In this document: in pieces, positions 1,674-56,395 of the stretch | How positions within the stretch are numbered: the stretch's first letter is position 1 | Layout of the letters: the number at the start of each line of letters is the position of its first letter | Source: Chitinophaga pinensis | GTDB lineage: Bacteria > Bacteroidota > Bacteroidia > Chitinophagales > UBA10324 | Length of the DNA: 64,000 bases | Assembly (NCBI GenBank): GCA_945903305.1 | Contig: CAMDOA010000001.1 | Span: 80,892 to 144,891 of the forward strand | Reading direction: 5' to 3' | Notes under the pieces: generated by a model | Database searches by the model: none | What the model was told of the DNA's origin: nothing | The model's input: only the letters and a program-made list of their open reading frames with translations | Translations under genes and position numbers: made by a program

Positions 1674-3749
1674 ATGAAAAAAATTCTTGCAATTGCGTTG
1701 CTGACTTCATGTTTTTCAGTTAATGCGCAAACTTATTATGTCAGTCAGATTCCTTATAACCCAATGCCCTTTGATTCGGGAATTGAAGTTTTAAACTATG
1801 TGGATGATCAATACAGCATGCCGATGGCTATTGGTTTTGATTTTTATTTTTTCGGCCAACAATACAATCAACTTTTATTCAGCACCAATAGTTATGTCAC
1901 ATTTGATTTAACAGGTGCGGGGAGTTATAGCCAATGGAATATTGCAAACCCTATTCCTACTAATATGAATCCGATGAATTCCATTTATTTTCCATTTCAG
2001 GATTTATTGCCCGCAGTAACAGGTAACGGAACAATGCATCATCAGGTTTATGGCTTGCCGCCAAACAGAAAGTTTGTAATGTCTTTTGATTCAATTCCGT
2101 TTTTCAGTTGCACAAACCTGTTTTATTCCGGTCAACTTATATTATATGAAGGCTCAAACAATATTGAAATTAATATTCGGCAAAAAGATTTATGCGCACA
2201 ATGGAATACAGGTGCAGGTATTTTAGGAATACAAAACGCAATGGGCACACAAGGATTTGTTGCTTCTAATTATAATTACCCAACACAGTGGACTGCGAAT
2301 AATGAATCGTGGTTGTTCAGTCCTGATAGTATTTACTCGCCTCAGTTAAATCAAAACAGAATCAGCGGTCGTGTGTTTGCCGATTTGGATTTCGATTGCA
2401 ATTTCGGAGGAGTTGATTATCCATTAATGAACAAACCGGTTATCATTTCTGATACTACCGGAAGTACTCAATACATGTTTACTGATATGCAGGGATATTA
2501 CAGCAAGTATGTTGATGCCGGAGTTTATACCTGGACCACTAACAATATTGCGAATCAGAATTATGCTACCAATTGCCCTGTGAGCGGAAGTTTTAATTAT
2601 ACTTTCACCGGATTCAACGACAGTACCGACAACAATATGATTGCTGATACTATTGTTGATTATTGCAGCGATTTAACCGCATCACTTTGGGTTTATGGTG
2701 AGCCCGATTCCACTTTCGGGTGGGGTGCTGATCCGCTTGGTGTTTGTGATACCGGATATATTCAATTGCATGTTTCAAACAGCGGAACCATGAACGACAA
2801 TGCTACCGTGATTTTAACATTGAACGATTCTACTTCTATTCTTAATTGCCCGGTTACATTTATTTCTCTTGGCAATAATCAAATTTCAATTGACTTGGGC
2901 AATTTAGTTGCCGGTGCTGATACTACTATTGTGATTATGATTCAGGCAGGTTGCGATACCATCGGAACACCTTATTGTTTTGCCTCTTCTGTTGCGGGCG
3001 GAGTTTATGATTGCTGGATGTATAATAACACCGATAATTTGTGTGTGCAGATTGGTGTGCCTTTCGATCCGAATGCCATGCTGGTGGCTTCCACACTTCA
3101 CCCGCAGGAAGGTATAGTTGATTTTATTCAAACACAACCGACCGATGATTTTACTTATACCATTCTGTTTCAAAATACCGGTTCGGCTGTTGCGCATGAT
3201 GTAAGAGTGGAAACTATTATTGATTCACATCTCAATATTAATTCCATTACTCCGGGTGCATCAAGCGCCAATTACAATTGGGTGGTGATTGGCAATAAGC
3301 TGATTTTAGAATTTATTGGAATTGAATTGGCCGACAGTAATGCCAACGAACCTGCAAGTCATGGTTTTGTTCGATTTAAAATAGAGCAAGCCGCAGGAAA
3401 TATTTATGGAACCTTTATTCCGCAAATGGCCAATATTTATTTTGATTACCTGAGCCCAGTAGCCACCAACAATGCAGTTGTTGAATTGCATCAGGAGATT
3501 ATTAATTCAACAATCAGTAACTCAGCGGTTGAATTTTCAATTACTCCGAATCCGGCTACCGATAAATTTTATTTAAACTGCAACCAAAAAATACATTATT
3601 CCATTCAGGATTTATCAGGAAGAATTTTTGAAACAGGAATAATTTCTAAACCAACTGAATTAAATTGCAGTGAGTGGGCGAAAGGAATTTATTTTATTAC
3701 CCTTCAAACAGCAGAAGGAAAGCAGGTGAAGAAATTAGTGAAAAATTAA
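1674..3749 (+). CDS. Secreted T9SS type A sorting domain protein with DUF11/DUF7619-like region
   Basis: Signal peptide MKKILAIALLTSCFSVNAQ. 'DPNAMLVAS...FTYTILFQNTGSAVAHDVRVETIID' region. C-term 'FSITPNPATDKFYL...GIYFITLQTAEGKQVKKLVKN'. Confidence 0.85.
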   Translation: MKKILAIALLTSCFSVNAQTYYVSQIPYNPMPFDSGIEVLNYVDDQYSMPMAIGFDFYFFGQQYNQLLFSTNSYVTFDLTGAGSYSQWNIANPIPTNMNPMNSIYFPFQDLLPAVTGNGTMHHQVYGLPPNRKFVMSFDSIPFFSCTNLFYSGQLILYEGSNNIEINIRQKDLCAQWNTGAGILGIQNAMGTQGFVASNYNYPTQWTANNESWLFSPDSIYSPQLNQNRISGRVFADLDFDCNFGGVDYPLMNKPVIISDTTGSTQYMFTDMQGYYSKYVDAGVYTWTTNNIANQNYATNCPVSGSFNYTFTGFNDSTDNNMIADTIVDYCSDLTASLWVYGEPDSTFGWGADPLGVCDTGYIQLHVSNSGTMNDNATVILTLNDSTSILNCPVTFISLGNNQISIDLGNLVAGADTTIVIMIQAGCDTIGTPYCFASSVAGGVYDCWMYNNTDNLCVQIGVPFDPNAMLVASTLHPQEGIVDFIQTQPTDDFTYTILFQNTGSAVAHDVRVETIIDSHLNINSITPGASSANYNWVVIGNKLILEFIGIELADSNANEPASHGFVRFKIEQAAGNIYGTFIPQMANIYFDYLSPVATNNAVVELHQEIINSTISNSAVEFSITPNPATDKFYLNCNQKIHYSIQDLSGRIFETGIISKPTELNCSEWAKGIYFITLQTAEGKQVKKLVKN

Positions 3750-3771
3750 ATAATATTTTAAAATCACTCGC

Positions 3772-4080
3772 TTAAAGTTTGCGTTCGTTGTGATAAAGTT
3801 GAAATTCGATGACCTAAAGTTGAAGGACGATGACAGCCTGACCAGGTCGATTGCTTAAAGCCCGAGTTGCATGACAGCAAGATTATTGATATTGCTCTAT
3901 TGATTGATGTTGATGGCTTATAGTTGTTGTTTGATGGCGGAAAGTTTGAGTTCGGTTGCGTTTGGACGGGGGACACTTTTCTATGGAATGGGTTCGATTG
4001 CTGAAAAATGAAGATTATTGGAAGAAAGCTGCATTGCGATGATGGATTGACCGCTGATTACGCAGATTATTATGATTTGC
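3772..4080. repeat. Degenerate 20-22 bp periodic non-coding array (about 15 units)
   Basis: Recurrent 'tTAAAGTTGAAgtTCGATgaC/gC' units. Unit ends at about 3813, 3834, 3854, 3875, 3895, 3917, 3938, 3959, 3981, 4001, 4021, 4043, 4063, 4080. Antisense ORF translation shows 7-aa periodicity (HRPSTLG/HRISTLS/QRTQTLS). Confidence 0.6.
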
Positions 4081-4261
4081 TCATAATACCCTTTTGCTTT
4101 CAATGGTCTTCGTGAACCTACGGCTTGTTTGATTATGATTTTTAAGGAAGGACTTTAGGGACAGTAAAATTTTGATGATGATGCTGGTTGCAAACCGGAT
4201 TATTATATTCAACTCCATTGGAAATGGAGCAGAATAGGTGACATATTCGTCAACACAAAAA

Positions 4262-4290
4262 CTCGTGCAGGTGAAAACACCTCGCACGGG
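4262..4290 (+). promoter_or_regulatory. Structured leader hairpin, copy 1
   Basis: CTCGTGCAGGTG-AAAA-CACCT(C)GCACGGG: about 12 bp stem with AAAA loop. Closely similar sequence recurs at 7345-7400. Confidence 0.6.
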
Positions 4291-4301
4291 CTTGGGTTGT
4301 T

Positions 4302-4309
4302 TATATTTG
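4302..4309 (+). promoter_or_regulatory. Bacteroidota-type -7 promoter box (TATATTTG)
   Basis: Matches TAnnTTTG; 5 bp before ATG 4314. Same context GGGTTGTTTATATTTGTT repeated at 7405-7421. Confidence 0.5.
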
Positions 4310-4313
4310 TTAA

Positions 4314-5699
4314 ATGTTAAAAGTTTGGAAGACCGACAAGCGCGGAATGAGGATAATATTAATTCTGAGTTTCGTTTTATTTATGAAACCAATTCAGGCA
4401 CAATGGGCCCATTGGGATATGCTTACCGTAAATGATTCTGTTTTTTGGGCGATGAAGGATATACATTTTTTTAATAATGATACAGGAATCATTGTTTGTA
4501 CTATTGATGACGGCCATCCGAGTGCTTTTTTTAAAACATTTGATGGTGGAATAAATTGGACAAAAACAATTGTACCGACAAAAATAAATGATATGGAGTT
4601 TATCAGTGAAGATACTGGTTATGCTGTTGGTATATTAGGTAGAGTTTATAGAACTATTAATGCCGGAGATAGCTGGCAATTACTGAATACATTAAGCCCA
4701 TGGTGGTCTTTGCTTTGCATCACATTTAAGAATAATCATGAATCATTCATTGGTTCAAGTGAAGATTTTTGCACCTGTGATGCCGCACTCATACATTCAA
4801 ATGATGGGTGGCTTACATATAATGGTGTTCCTTTCGATACCAATTTAATCTTTAACCCGCTTGGTCCAGTTAATTATATAAAATTCAGTGATGAATTGCG
4901 TGGTTTTGTTGGGAGAGGTTCTGGGCTTCTTAAAACAATCGATGGCGGCTTAACATGGTTTCAAGATACTCTGTTTATTCCCTATACTGCTGGTGTAACA
5001 AATATATCATTAAATAAATTTGATTCTTCAATTTGGGTTTGTACCGAGGGTAATGTTCAACAGACTAATTATGGAGCAGCATTTTATAAAAGTATTAATA
5101 ACGGTATAAATTGGCAAGAAATTAGCCCGCCAATCTTATTTCATGGTGTTGATTCTATTCGTGCTGTATACGATATGGAATTTATTACAGAAGATATTGT
5201 GTATGCTGTAGGTGGGGCAAAACCTTGGACCCTAGTACCGGATGGCGGTATTACTTATTCTATTGATGGCGGCGATACCTGGCTGGATGATTATGTTGGG
5301 GGAAACGATGGCATTGCTTTTTTAGGAATGGATTGTCCTACACCACAGGTTTGCTACACCGGTGGCGGAAATTTATCTCCAACTAATAAAGTTATCTTGT
5401 TGAAAAATACTCAAGCAGATTTCGGTACATCAATAAAAAGCATAAGCGTAAACCACAACTCACAATTGGTTTTATACCCAAACCCGGTAACATCAAACGC
5501 AACAATAGAATACAATGCAACAAACACAGGCAAAGCAAATCTTACAATAGAAAATTATTTAGGGCAAATAATTCAAACATTCCAATTAAACAACAATCAA
5601 AAACAAACCATAAATATGAGTAACTACCCAAACGGCATTTACTTTATAAAGTGCTTTGATGGTAAGGAGTTGAATGTGTTAAAATTGATTAAGCAATAA
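4314..5699 (+). CDS. T9SS type A sorting domain protein with Ycf48/BNR-like repeats (paralog A)
   Basis: 'NDTGIIV', 'FKTFDGGINWTKT', 'EDTGYAVGILGRVYRTINAGDSW' repeats. C-term 'LVLYPNPVTSNATIEY...GIYFIKCFDGKELNVLKLIKQ'. Signal peptide may start at internal M 4347 (MRIILILSFVLFMKPIQAQ). Confidence 0.85.
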   Translation: MLKVWKTDKRGMRIILILSFVLFMKPIQAQWAHWDMLTVNDSVFWAMKDIHFFNNDTGIIVCTIDDGHPSAFFKTFDGGINWTKTIVPTKINDMEFISEDTGYAVGILGRVYRTINAGDSWQLLNTLSPWWSLLCITFKNNHESFIGSSEDFCTCDAALIHSNDGWLTYNGVPFDTNLIFNPLGPVNYIKFSDELRGFVGRGSGLLKTIDGGLTWFQDTLFIPYTAGVTNISLNKFDSSIWVCTEGNVQQTNYGAAFYKSINNGINWQEISPPILFHGVDSIRAVYDMEFITEDIVYAVGGAKPWTLVPDGGITYSIDGGDTWLDDYVGGNDGIAFLGMDCPTPQVCYTGGGNLSPTNKVILLKNTQADFGTSIKSISVNHNSQLVLYPNPVTSNATIEYNATNTGKANLTIENYLGQIIQTFQLNNNQKQTINMSNYPNGIYFIKCFDGKELNVLKLIKQ

Positions 5700-5700
5700 A

Positions 5701-5916
5701 ATGAGAGATGCAAACACAAATGAACCACTTGGTGCAAAAGCACCCGTGTCCCTCAGTGCTCAAGCCACTGGCGGCGGGAGACACGGGCGAGTGGAAATTA
5801 AAAACCATGAAAAATACATATTGGATTTATCAATTTTTCCATCCGGAATCTATTTTATTCGGAGTTTTGATGGCCAAGAATTATTAACCTTTAAAATCGT
5901 AAAACAAAATGACTAA
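5701..5916 (+). pseudogene. Remnant of a T9SS C-terminal sorting domain interrupted by a palindromic element
   Basis: Only the distal half of a sorting domain is present ('YILDLSIFPSGIYFIRSFDGQELLTFKIVKQND'). It is preceded by a repeat-like palindrome and lies between two full-length paralogs. Confidence 0.6.
5731..5787. repeat. Nested palindromic element
   Basis: GGTGC-AAAA-GCACC, then CCCGTGTC...CAGTG-CTCAAGC-CACTG...GACACGGG. Confidence 0.55.
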
Positions 5917-7279
5917 ATACTGTTTTACTTTATGGTTATTTTTATTTTTCGCTTCTTCATATGGACAATCTTGGGATATTATATATTTAGATACAATACA
6001 ATGGGAAAACAATGTAAATGACATCCATTTTATTAATAATGATACTGGTTTTGCTGCTTGTTGGTCAGGAGGTGTTGGTGATGGCTCTTTATTCCGGACT
6101 ATGAATGGCGGATTGTCGTGGAGTAAAACTGATTTTCAAAGTGGATTAAAACAAATGGCATTTATATCGAATGATACAGGTTTTGTCGTCGGCACGAATG
6201 GCAAAGTATTCGCAACATTTAATATGGGAAATAATTGGAATTTAATAAATATTCTTTCGCCATGGAGAGACTTGCATTCTATATATTTTAAAAAAAATGG
6301 TGAATCGTATATAGGTGCTGGAACTTCGTTTTGTGATCCACCATTTGCATGTACTGAAGTTTTGCTTTATTCGAATGACCATTGGCAATCATTTTCTTCT
6401 ATTACCTTACCGGATTCAGGACTCAGTTCACCATTGCAATCTTTAATACGATTCAATTTTCTAAATGAGGATACGGGATTTATTATAAGTGAAAATAATG
6501 CTTTTCAGACAGAAAATGGAGGTGATACATGGGAAATCAGGTATGACTTGCCTTATATTATTCACAAAGGAATTATTTTTTATCCCCCTTCTCAATCAAA
6601 GTTATTCTTAGGTGGGTTTGGCGATCCTGATGGTTTTATTCAAGATAGCTTTAATTTTGGTACGGTTAATCAAGGTGCATCTTTGCAATTCAGTATAAAT
6701 TTAGGAGAAACATGGAATTCATACTATACATCAAATCCATTTGGAATAGATACGATATATAGTTTTTATGATGCAGAATTTGTTAATGAAAATATTGCAT
6801 ATGTGGTTGGTGGATCAAAATGGATGACAATGAATGATGATGGTGGAATTATTCAAACCACTGATGGCGGTAATACATGGATTGATAATTATATCCCCGG
6901 AAATAAAGCTTCAAAAATTTTTGCAATTGATTGCCCTTCGTCAAAAGTTTGCTATGCAGGTGGATACCATGGTATTATATTGAAAAACTCGAACGCAGAT
7001 TTAACCTCATCAGTAAAAAGTATAAGTAAAAACAATAACTCGCAGTTAGTTTTATACCCCAACCCGGTAACATCAACTACAACAATAGAATACCAAACTA
7101 CCACCACCGGAAAGGGAGCCATATCAATAGAAAACAACTTAGGGCAAACCATTCAAACATTACAAATAACTACTAACGAAAAACAAACAATAGATATAAG
7201 CAACTACCCAAGCGGCATGTACTTTGTAAAATGCTTCAACGGTAAGGAGATGAGAGTTTTAAAATTGATTAAGCAGTAG
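5909..7279 (+). CDS. T9SS type A sorting domain protein with Ycf48/BNR-like repeats (paralog B)
   Basis: Same repeat architecture as 4314-5699. C-term 'LVLYPNPVTSTTTIEYQTTTTGKGAISIENNLGQTIQTLQ...KCFNGKEMRVLKLIKQ'. Confidence 0.85.
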   Translation: MTKYCFTLWLFLFFASSYGQSWDIIYLDTIQWENNVNDIHFINNDTGFAACWSGGVGDGSLFRTMNGGLSWSKTDFQSGLKQMAFISNDTGFVVGTNGKVFATFNMGNNWNLINILSPWRDLHSIYFKKNGESYIGAGTSFCDPPFACTEVLLYSNDHWQSFSSITLPDSGLSSPLQSLIRFNFLNEDTGFIISENNAFQTENGGDTWEIRYDLPYIIHKGIIFYPPSQSKLFLGGFGDPDGFIQDSFNFGTVNQGASLQFSINLGETWNSYYTSNPFGIDTIYSFYDAEFVNENIAYVVGGSKWMTMNDDGGIIQTTDGGNTWIDNYIPGNKASKIFAIDCPSSKVCYAGGYHGIILKNSNADLTSSVKSISKNNNSQLVLYPNPVTSTTTIEYQTTTTGKGAISIENNLGQTIQTLQITTNEKQTIDISNYPSGMYFVKCFNGKEMRVLKLIKQ

Positions 7280-7288
7280 CCCACCCGG

Positions 7289-7303
7289 CCTCCCCAAGGG
7301 AGG
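7289..7303. repeat. Small palindrome CCTCCC-CAA-GGGAGG downstream of paralog B
   Basis: 6 bp perfect stem in 'CCCACCCGGCCTCCCCAAGGGAGGAG'; no poly-T tract. Confidence 0.4.
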
Positions 7304-7344
7304 AGCAGTACAATTGAGAGATGAAATATTCTCTCTCAGAAAAA

Positions 7345-7419
7345 CTCGTGTAGGTGAAAACACTCCCGACGATTACATCGGGACATTCTGCGCTCACGGG
7401 CATGGGTTGTTTATATTTG
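7345..7419 (+). promoter_or_regulatory. Structured leader copy 2 plus TATATTTG promoter box
   Basis: CTCGTG...CACGGG closing stem, GTGAAAACAC and CCCGA-CGATTACA-TCGGG internal hairpins, then GGGTTGTTTATATTTGTT identical to copy 1. Confidence 0.55.
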
Positions 7420-7426
7420 TTGAGAT

Positions 7427-7465
7427 ATGAAAATATGGAACACTAACAAAAACGGAAAAGTCTAA
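7427..7465 (+). pseudogene. 12-codon remnant (or leader peptide) MKIWNTNKNGKV*
   Basis: Aligns with the N-terminus of paralog A (MLKVWKTDKRGM) and has the same upstream leader. Confidence 0.4.
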
Positions 7466-7476
7466 GGGATATTAAA

Positions 7477-7515
7477 TGTGAGATTGCCGCGTCGAGTGAT
7501 TACACTCTCCTCACA
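7477..7515. repeat. Dispersed-type palindromic element ('TGTGAGATTGCCGCGTCGAGTGATTACACTCTCCTCACA')
   Basis: Outer stem TGTGAG/CTCACA and inner stem GAGTG/CACTC. Resembles the common 'GAGATTGCcgcGTCG...CCTCgCAATGAC' intergenic repeat. Confidence 0.5.
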
Positions 7516-7597
7516 ATGACATCGAAAAAAAATGGTGGCATGCCTTTATGAAATTCTTTTTGTGTTTTTAATGTCTGAAAAATAATTTCTGATAACA

Positions 7598-7609: not shown

Positions 7610-7822
7610 ATGATTGCCCGCATTCTCGAATCCCGGATTGTTGATTTACTGCTTATTATATTGGCCTTGCGATTTATATTCCCCAATCTGTTTTCATTCA
7701 AAGCATTTAAATCAGCAAAGAAAACGGAACGGATTATTATCGTGCATAAAGAAAAGGAAATTGTAAAAAGTAAGCCCTCGGATAAAGCCGGAGAATATGT
7801 TGATTATGAAGAAGTGAAATAG
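7610..7822 (+). CDS. Small single-TM protein, DUF4834-like
   Basis: N-terminal TM helix then basic tail. Small membrane protein upstream of the atp operon. Confidence 0.5.
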   Translation: MIARILESRIVDLLLIILALRFIFPNLFSFKAFKSAKKTERIIIVHKEKEIVKSKPSDKAGEYVDYEEVK

Positions 7823-43894: not shown

Positions 43895-43973
43895 ATGCAA
43901 ACAACTATTCAACTAATCAACTAATGAACGAATAACCTAATGAACTAATTAACCATTCAACTAATCAGTTTTG
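43895..43973. repeat. Low-complexity 'AACTAATgAAC' intergenic repeat
   Basis: 'AACAACTATTCAACTAATCAACTAATGAACGAATAACCTAATGAACTAATTAACCATTCAACTAATCAG'. Confidence 0.55.
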
Positions 43974-48429: not shown

Positions 48430-48498
48430 TCTTAATGCATGACCAAATAAACGAATGAACAAATGAACCAATAAACGAATGTACCAATGAACGAATAA
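48430..48498. repeat. Low-complexity 'AACGAATGAAC' intergenic repeat abutting ispG
   Basis: 'AATAAACGAATGAACAAATGAACCAATAAACGAATGTACCAATGAACGAATAAAC'. Confidence 0.55.
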
Positions 48499-48499
48499 A

Positions 48500-50464
48500 C
48501 TAAATGCCTTCCACCCAATCGCCATTCTCCTTTATCAGATTAATTAATTCGTCAACAGCTGTTTCAGTATTGATGCTGCGCTTCATAATATCCTTGCCTT
48601 TGTATAAAGTAATTTTTCCTGGACCGCTTCCAACATAACCATAATCAGCATCGGCCATTTCACCGGGGCCATTTACTATGCAACCCATTATCGCAATCTT
48701 CATTCCTTTCAAATGATTGGTGACTGCACGAATTTTTGCGGTGGTTTCCTGCAAATCAAAAAGTGTGCGGCCACAACTCGGACAACTGATGTATTCGGTT
48801 TTCGAAATACGCTGACGACATCCTTGTAAAATTCCGAAGCACAAACGATTTACATTTTGCGAAAGTTGATTATCGGCTTTCAGCCAAATGCCATCGCCAA
48901 ATCCATCCAGCAACAAGGCGCCAAAATCTGTGGCAGCATGAAGTGATAGTTCATCAGCAGAAAGATGATTGTATTCACGATTGATTATTACGGGGCACGA
49001 AAATTTTTCATTCAGCAATTCAAAAAACAATCTTCGTTGCTGCATCATTCCATTTATGTGAGTGGATGAAATTACCAGCACGCAATTTTTTTGCTCTTCT
49101 AATTTCTCCAAAAACGAATCTGAAAATTCATCGAGCGAAATTTTTATAAAATTTAATGATGGTGATAAAATTGTTTCAGTTAAAAATTCAATTGTTGTAA
49201 GTAATGGAAATCTTTTTTCACCACTGCCGTTGTTGGTGTTTTCACCAACAACTTCCATCCACGATTTATAATTCTGAATCAAACCCAATGTTCCGGGAAT
49301 TTCGAAATCAACTTTATGAATGCCGGTGTAGATATAATCAGCAGCTGTATCACTGATGTTCCATTTATCGCTTGCTTCATCATAACTGTAACCAAGCGGA
49401 ATAAAAGATGAATGAGAAATGTTTCGCTCCGCACTGCAATCGGCAACAACAACAGGAACTTTGTGCGCGCCAATATTATTTATTGCAAATGTTTCTCTTC
49501 TTGAATAATGAAAAGGATCAATTGGATTTTCTTTAATGGAAGAAACGACCTGTGTTTGCCTTTTTTCAGAATATCTGTCGGCTAAAATTTTTGCAACCGG
49601 AATTTCAAACTCGGGGTCTTCGGTAAGCGACACTCGAATGGTATCGCCCAATCCATCTTCCAGTAATGTTCCGATTCCGATTGATGATTTTATTCTTCCG
49701 TCTTCACCATCACCGGCTTCTGTTACACCAAGGTGCAATGGATAATTCCGTCCGGTCTTCATCATCTCATGCACAAGCAAACGATACGCCTGAACCATGA
49801 CTTGTGTGTTGCTCGACTTCATGCTCAGTACAATATTCTGATAACCGAGGTCTTCAGCAATGTCTAAAAATTCAAATGCACTCATCACCATTCCCATTGG
49901 CGAATCGCCATAGCGGCTCATGATTCTGTCGCTCAACGAACCGTGATTGGTGCCGATGCGCATGGCGGTTCCATGTTCCTTGCAAATTTTTACAAGCGGA
50001 GAAAATTTTTCTCTGATGCGCTCTAACTCCTCGTTGTATTCAGCATCGGTGTATTCAAGCGTTTGAAATTTTTTCTTGTCAGCAAAGTTTCCCGGGTTCA
50101 CTCGCACCTTCTCTACAATTCGCGCAGCAACCTCAGCCGCATTGGGTGTGAAATGTATATCGGCAATCAACGGAGTTTTATATCCGCGGGCAAGCAATTC
50201 CTTTTTTATGTTTTCTAAATTCTTAGCTTCATTAATACTCGGTGCTGTGATTCGAACCAACTCGCAACCAGCATCAATCATCCGCATGCTTTGCTCAACC
50301 GTTGCAATGGTATTCATTGTATCGGTGGTGGTCATGCTTTGAATCCGGATTGGATTATTGCCACCAATTCCAATAGCACCAATCATTACTTCACGGGTCA
50401 CAAATCTCGAATAGGTAGTTAAACTGTTGCAATATTTTTTATCAGAAATATTCATTGAAGGCAA
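48500..50464 (-). CDS. ispG: (E)-4-hydroxy-3-methylbut-2-enyl-diphosphate synthase, large form with insertion domain
   Basis: 'IGGNNPIRIQSMTTTDTMNTIATVEQSMRMIDAGCELVRIT', 'RVNPGNFADKK', 'YISCPSCGRTLFDLQ', 'KIAIMGCIVNGPGEMADADYGYVGSGPGKITLYKG'. Confidence 0.97.
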   Translation of the reverse strand: MPSMNISDKKYCNSLTTYSRFVTREVMIGAIGIGGNNPIRIQSMTTTDTMNTIATVEQSMRMIDAGCELVRITAPSINEAKNLENIKKELLARGYKTPLIADIHFTPNAAEVAARIVEKVRVNPGNFADKKKFQTLEYTDAEYNEELERIREKFSPLVKICKEHGTAMRIGTNHGSLSDRIMSRYGDSPMGMVMSAFEFLDIAEDLGYQNIVLSMKSSNTQVMVQAYRLLVHEMMKTGRNYPLHLGVTEAGDGEDGRIKSSIGIGTLLEDGLGDTIRVSLTEDPEFEIPVAKILADRYSEKRQTQVVSSIKENPIDPFHYSRRETFAINNIGAHKVPVVVADCSAERNISHSSFIPLGYSYDEASDKWNISDTAADYIYTGIHKVDFEIPGTLGLIQNYKSWMEVVGENTNNGSGEKRFPLLTTIEFLTETILSPSLNFIKISLDEFSDSFLEKLEEQKNCVLVISSTHINGMMQQRRLFFELLNEKFSCPVIINREYNHLSADELSLHAATDFGALLLDGFGDGIWLKADNQLSQNVNRLCFGILQGCRQRISKTEYISCPSCGRTLFDLQETTAKIRAVTNHLKGMKIAIMGCIVNGPGEMADADYGYVGSGPGKITLYKGKDIMKRSINTETAVDELINLIKENGDWVEGI

Positions 50465-56279: not shown

Positions 56280-56395
56280 GATTGTCATGTTGAGCCTGTC
56301 GAAGCACACTTTTTACACCTGTAATACTGAGCCTGTCGAAGTACTCTTTGCACTTTGTCATGCTGAGTTTGTCGAAGCACACCTTTCACAATTCA
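56280..56395. repeat. Three tandem imperfect copies of 'TGTCATGCTGAGCCTGTCGAAGCACAC'
   Basis: TGTCATGTTGAGCCTGTCGAAGCACAC / TGTAATACTGAGCCTGTCGAAGTACTC / TGTCATGCTGAGTTTGTCGAAGCACAC between sucB and lpdA. Confidence 0.8.

Follow-up and report, generated by a model that had tools for sequence, protein, structure and literature searches.

Several described systems resemble the array analysed here. Bacterial minisatellites (VNTR) share with it head-to-tail intergenic units, higher-order repeats and the concerted change of an orthologous array; they differ in that the units here are degenerate, a period of two helical turns recurs across mostly unrelated families, and the copies are dispersed. 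The STRR of cyanobacteria are short heptameric tandem repeats. These degenerate, short-period intergenic arrays have a counterpart in the genome under study, which also contains 7- and 8-bp arrays, whereas the array itself has a period of 21-22 bp and no clear 7-bp sub-period by autocorrelation. Direct repeats in tandem, spaced by about two helical turns, are also found in array-type plasmid centromeres of the ParR/parC type, such as that of plasmid pSK41, with its 20-bp repeats (PMC9426499; reviewed in PMC5016525), and in Rep iterons. In contrast to them, the present array is chromosomal and intergenic, without par or rep genes and without a plasmid or phage match, so that the likeness would be one of working at best. 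REP and REPIN elements are dispersed intergenic palindromes moved by RAYT transposases (PMC2817692, PMC3116915). The array resembles them as a dispersed intergenic repeat, and one REP-like element lies on its 3' side, but REPs are palindromic and the array lacks dyad symmetry.

The array was found in a freshwater Bacteroidota bacterium, within a stretch of 64,000 nucleotides (the window, to which all plain positions refer), where it separates two genes for secreted proteins with T9SS sorting domains (Table 1).

Extent of the array and its locus

A sequence-only reading had described the gap between the two T9SS genes as a strictly phased, degenerate, non-coding array of about 15 units with a spacing of 20-22 bp, spanning 3772-4080 and perhaps continuing weakly to about 4190. 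Autocorrelation against dinucleotide-shuffled controls, the comparison that it proposed, revealed the expected excess: over 3772-4080 the z score at lag 21 is 6.25, with raised harmonics at 42 and 63, 43% of the positions match at this lag versus 27% in dinucleotide shuffles, and the combined periodicity statistic was reached by none of 500 shuffles. The segment 3772-3965 alone gives a lag-21 z of 6.17. The extension from 3965 to 4080 is weak on its own (z 1.8 at lag 21), and at 4080-4313 the 21-bp signal is absent by autocorrelation against dinucleotide shuffles, which leaves the continuation to about 4190 unsupported. Strict phase and degeneracy were borne out for 3772-3981, which fits a cyclic 21-column profile as ten units of 21 bp, without any indel and with a mean divergence from the consensus of 44%. 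The alternation of 20 and 22 bp largely reflects the points at which divergent units had been cut, because this core aligns indel-free at 21 columns. When the 15 units were scored singly against the consensus of the sequence-only reading, eight matched it clearly, with z above 3; another three did so weakly, at z about 2, and the remaining four, at 3876, 3960, 4044 and 4064, gave no match. Tandem Repeats Finder calls just two units, at 3793-3835, and a standard repeat search would therefore miss the array.

Table 1. Features of the array locus (positions in the window)
Feature	Position	Strand	Basis
Upstream gene, DUF7619 and T9SS sorting domain	1674..3749	+	Pfam; orthologues mark the locus in congeners
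AT-rich block and CACTYGC before the first unit, conserved in three homologous copies	3754..3771	+	alignment of the window, L007 and L015
Core array, consensus near.TA.AG.T.....TCGAT...	3772..3981	+	autocorrelation, profile alignment, homologues in register
Weak continuation, unproven and not common to the homologues	3982..4080	+	lag-21 z 1.8 in 3965-4080; unit scores; homology stops near 3988
REP-like dispersed repeat with hairpin and -7 motif TATATTTG at 4302; a neighbour, outside the array	4245..4339	+	
Downstream gene, BNR/YCF48-like product carrying a T9SS sorting domain; probable true start at 4347	4314..5699	+	Pfam, sequence

The array sits in a variable stretch, congeners differing in what lies behind the orthologue of the upstream gene. 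In G001 this orthologue is followed directly by a terminator, then by a small gene (at 7610 in the window) and atpB, with no array; the missing stretch corresponds to 3750-7540 and holds the array, two T9SS BNR genes and REP copies. In G003 a 21-bp array of a different unit family follows the orthologue, in G005 and G002 other genes do, and in G004 the corresponding stretch is masked. Beside the array lie T9SS genes and the operon for ATP synthase, but neither par nor rep genes, and no plasmid matches it; by location and gene content it does not qualify as a plasmid centromere or iteron array.

No Bacteroidota -7 motif occurs in the region apart from the one in the REP-like element. This element belongs to a dispersed repeat made of a hairpin, GTGCAGGTGAAAACACCTCGCAC, and the TATATTTG promoter motif, often located directly upstream of T9SS genes, with copies in the window at 4245-4339 and 7329-7449 and at G000:C2:26759-27493, where a Y1-transposase (RAYT-like) gene (C2:26857-27384) lies between two copies in inverted orientation. 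The downstream ORF, listed from 4314, probably begins at the position given in Table 1 (MRIILILSFVLFMKPIQAQ, signal peptide), its preceding codons belonging to the REP-like element. On the contigs examined, only the window copy of the array adjoins this REP family, and mobilisation by REP/RAYT was rejected as the cause of the arrays; the array is likewise no REP element, being devoid of dyad symmetry and separate from the REP-like repeat. A second dispersed repeat, at 5700-5790, has further copies on contig C1 of G004, near 85367 and 99121, of which the second adjoins the homologue of the array. Elsewhere in the window, degenerate intergenic arrays of 8-bp period, a class that is common in this genome, lie at 43897-43967 and 48439-48506, and at 56282-56390 a 36-37 bp unit, TTGTCATGCTGAGCCTGTCGAAGCACACTTTGCACAC, occurs three times in tandem.

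Homologous copies and sister arrays

Two homologous copies of the array were identified in a congeneric lake MAG (G004, Bacteroidota bacterium LBMAG_Bacteroidetes_hypo.bin2), at C1:99217-99454 and C20:20659-20895. Their identity is 71-72%, with every unit in register, and the homology begins at the AT-rich block before unit 1 and stops near position 3988 of the window. The three sites are unrelated by gene context: in G004, one copy lies between the gene of a secreted protein (T9SS-type C-terminus) and a radical SAM gene, the other between lon and a secreted-protein gene. This family is characterised by a pair of conserved half blocks that lie about one turn from each other. A profile built from sequence alone found no further convincing copy across the taxonomic family, the weak matches being mostly coding noise and the match in G046 a 7-bp array; the exact conserved pattern matched only the G004 copies among about 85,000 species genomes, and plasmids and phages gave no match.

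The array has company in its own genome. A lag scan of the intergenic segments in about 1.26 Mb (strong meaning z above 6) returned 30 strong segments, versus none in shuffled sequence, with periods mainly of 7/14, 8/16 and 21/22/42 bp. About ten of these are strong non-coding arrays of the 21/22/42-bp kind with mostly unrelated units, for example AATGCCGCGGAAGGCATCTTC, GATAAATTGAGTGACGACGGT, ATTATAAATGGAAGATAATAA and the 22-bp AGTATATGAATCAGGGAGACTC, and several have dispersed, nearly gap-free relatives in the genus. No array of this class was found in another genus of the same family or in another family of the same order, 400 kb of each being scanned. Two other families of the order do contain 21-bp arrays, one with about 26 near-identical units (G110) and one with about 14 degenerate units (G344), so that the question of recurrence posed at the outset receives a positive answer. 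Both have the spacing AAAG-N8-CGATG in common with the window array, which may be due to chance: as a cross-family motif it was rejected, since the pattern matched 11 genomes and its reversed control five, one of them ten times. G344 was itself found with this pattern, the ten matches of the reversed control being in an array-like genome. A search of the open-access literature, with subscription journals outside its scope, yielded no description of such arrays, which form a recurring class, undescribed in that literature, in this Bacteroidota genus and probably in its order too.

The position and orientation of the arrays relative to neighbouring genes vary. An association with T9SS genes is suggestive only (p 0.057; four of ten arrays, compared with 21 of the 145 intergenic regions that measure 250 bp or more). 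The ATAGTACTAT family (L135, L146, L147) has inverted 21-bp half units, a 42-bp period and a strong fold, being the only one among the sister arrays that folds well, and two of its copies lie directly 5' of the orphan gene MTAFIQ. Orphan proteins of about 200-320 aa, predicted to be helical with a small C-terminal beta domain, are encoded beside several 21-bp arrays (L139:2109-3059, L142:1808-2764, L147:3-572, L132:191-1159, L133:42-1007, L231:122-1033); they have almost no Pfam match. An association with such proteins was rejected, as they do not form one family by sequence and yield models with a mean pLDDT of 42-46. Dyad-symmetric operator arrays were rejected as well, the C21 family being the only case among the arrays.

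Turnover of the arrays and the origin of their period

How such arrays change could be followed behind a fatty-acid desaturase gene, where an array occupies an orthologous position in G002 (about 20 units in strict 21-bp phase) and G000 (about 14 units). Its consensus is near AGCGGTAATAAATTGCGTGTA in the former and GATAAATTGAGTGACGACGAA in the latter, and the period of 21 is kept in both. Two arrays show higher-order repeats, of 84 and 126 bp, which point to block duplication, and the arrays of related genomes range from near-identical to strongly degenerate. A minisatellite had been excluded at the outset on the grounds that its units would be near-identical. This exclusion fails, because the consensus of the desaturase-side array differs between two species at an unchanged period, as is to be expected of a satellite that ages and homogenises itself; furthermore, head-to-tail units of 10-60 bp above chance, as in minisatellites, are present in the window array.

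These observations can be accommodated if the window array is taken for an old and degenerated copy of a satellite-like (minisatellite) non-coding element that has dispersed, its family belonging to a class of intergenic arrays with a period of 21 bp, more rarely 22 or 42, an account to which we give about an even chance of being correct. Briefly, an array would begin as a short tandem duplication, grow and be homogenised in whole units through slippage or unequal exchange, occasionally spread in blocks to new intergenic sites, and in the end decay, chiefly through substitutions; the window copy presumably represents this last stage. Turnover in whole units is suggested by the sister arrays, though not seen in the window family, and movement by the dispersed copies. 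The account is favoured by the period itself, the copies at unrelated sites, the lack of coding signal and of a common RNA structure or curvature, the sister arrays with unrelated units, the drift of the desaturase-side array at a fixed period, and the situation at the locus in G001 (no array) and G003 (another family). The window array may have no function at all. Against the satellite-like account, a neutral satellite does not predict a strong preference for 21-22 bp, and homologous copies have opened fewer gaps relative to substitutions (about 7 per 371, counted over non-redundant pairs) than the ordinary intergenic DNA compared between these genomes (46 per 635, or 0.072 gap openings per substitution).

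The main rival, which we regard as appreciably less probable, is that the array is a nucleoprotein scaffold built on one face of the DNA. The units would be binding sites whose two-turn spacing aligns a multimeric protein on one side, in the manner of ParR at parC or Rep at iterons, with the sequence drifting in concert with the protein and the spacing remaining fixed. The recurrence of a two-turn period among unrelated families is consistent with it, as are the half blocks of the window family, the weak 10.5-bp harmonic in conservation over the arrays (Fisher p 0.04) and the presence of HTH genes beside some arrays. The scarcity of indels points in the same direction, twelve arrays accumulating 884 differences from consensus and two indel steps, by a method with which a lone inserted base was recovered 22 times in 30 trials, and on arrays mostly found and trimmed by a fixed lag. 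However, indels are equally scarce in 7- and 8-bp arrays from these genomes (one indel step to 393 differences), which weakens the scarcity as proof of helical selection; because of this control and of the fixed-lag ascertainment, strict phase alone is no evidence for it. In addition, the array sequences are so different that many proteins would be needed, and their placement relative to genes is not constant. A broader version, in which strict 21-bp arrays would form, within this Bacteroidota order, a functional class of nucleoprotein sites on the chromosome, coated on one DNA face by array-specific proteins so that sequence can drift and spacing cannot, is more doubtful still.

An RNA transcribed from the array, such as a sponge or the precursor of units of about 21 nt, seems improbable. 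The strong strand asymmetry of the array (GC skew 0.29) and the conserved AT-rich flank at its start would fit it, but both strands fold worse than shuffles (z +2.25 and +2.05), no promoter is found at the array start and orientation to the neighbouring genes varies; the covariation term of 0.24 comes from three sequences only. The best Rfam matches to the array, one CRISPR repeat among them, are at chance level, in keeping with the initial failure to recognise a named family. Neither this array-type RNA nor phased bending, both of which had been suggested, thus found support, intrinsic curvature in a wedge model being ordinary (ENDS ratio 1.063, p 0.28 versus permuted columns); among the sister arrays, only the C22 array and perhaps that at C2:107655 are curved, and curvature was rejected as a common feature. 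That the array is not a CRISPR was confirmed by its degenerate units, the absence of spacers, its T9SS neighbours and the chance-level Rfam match. Finally, the decayed remnant of a gene encoding a 7-residue protein repeat, named beforehand as the finding that would overturn the non-coding claim, is very improbable: 21 is divisible by 3, single arrays are open in one frame and a 70-aa frame runs on the minus strand at 3764-3976, but both G004 homologues carry stops in every frame, substitutions between copies are even over codon positions, with no bias within arrays either, stop depletion across arrays is not consistent, a sister array has a 22-bp period, and neither the open frame nor the third-position substitution excess of such a gene was found.

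Returning to the satellite-like account, the long periods cluster at 21-22 and 42 bp, and this preference for two turns means either that it is favoured by the duplication process or that something binds DNA in two-turn steps. If the pattern holds, this Bacteroidota group carries many intergenic satellites in which the sequence is free and the two-turn period is kept, and the arrays mark variable intergenic sites next to the genes of T9SS-secreted surface proteins. It thereby becomes a testable question whether the period is set by the copying of the arrays or by a protein that reads the DNA in two-turn steps.
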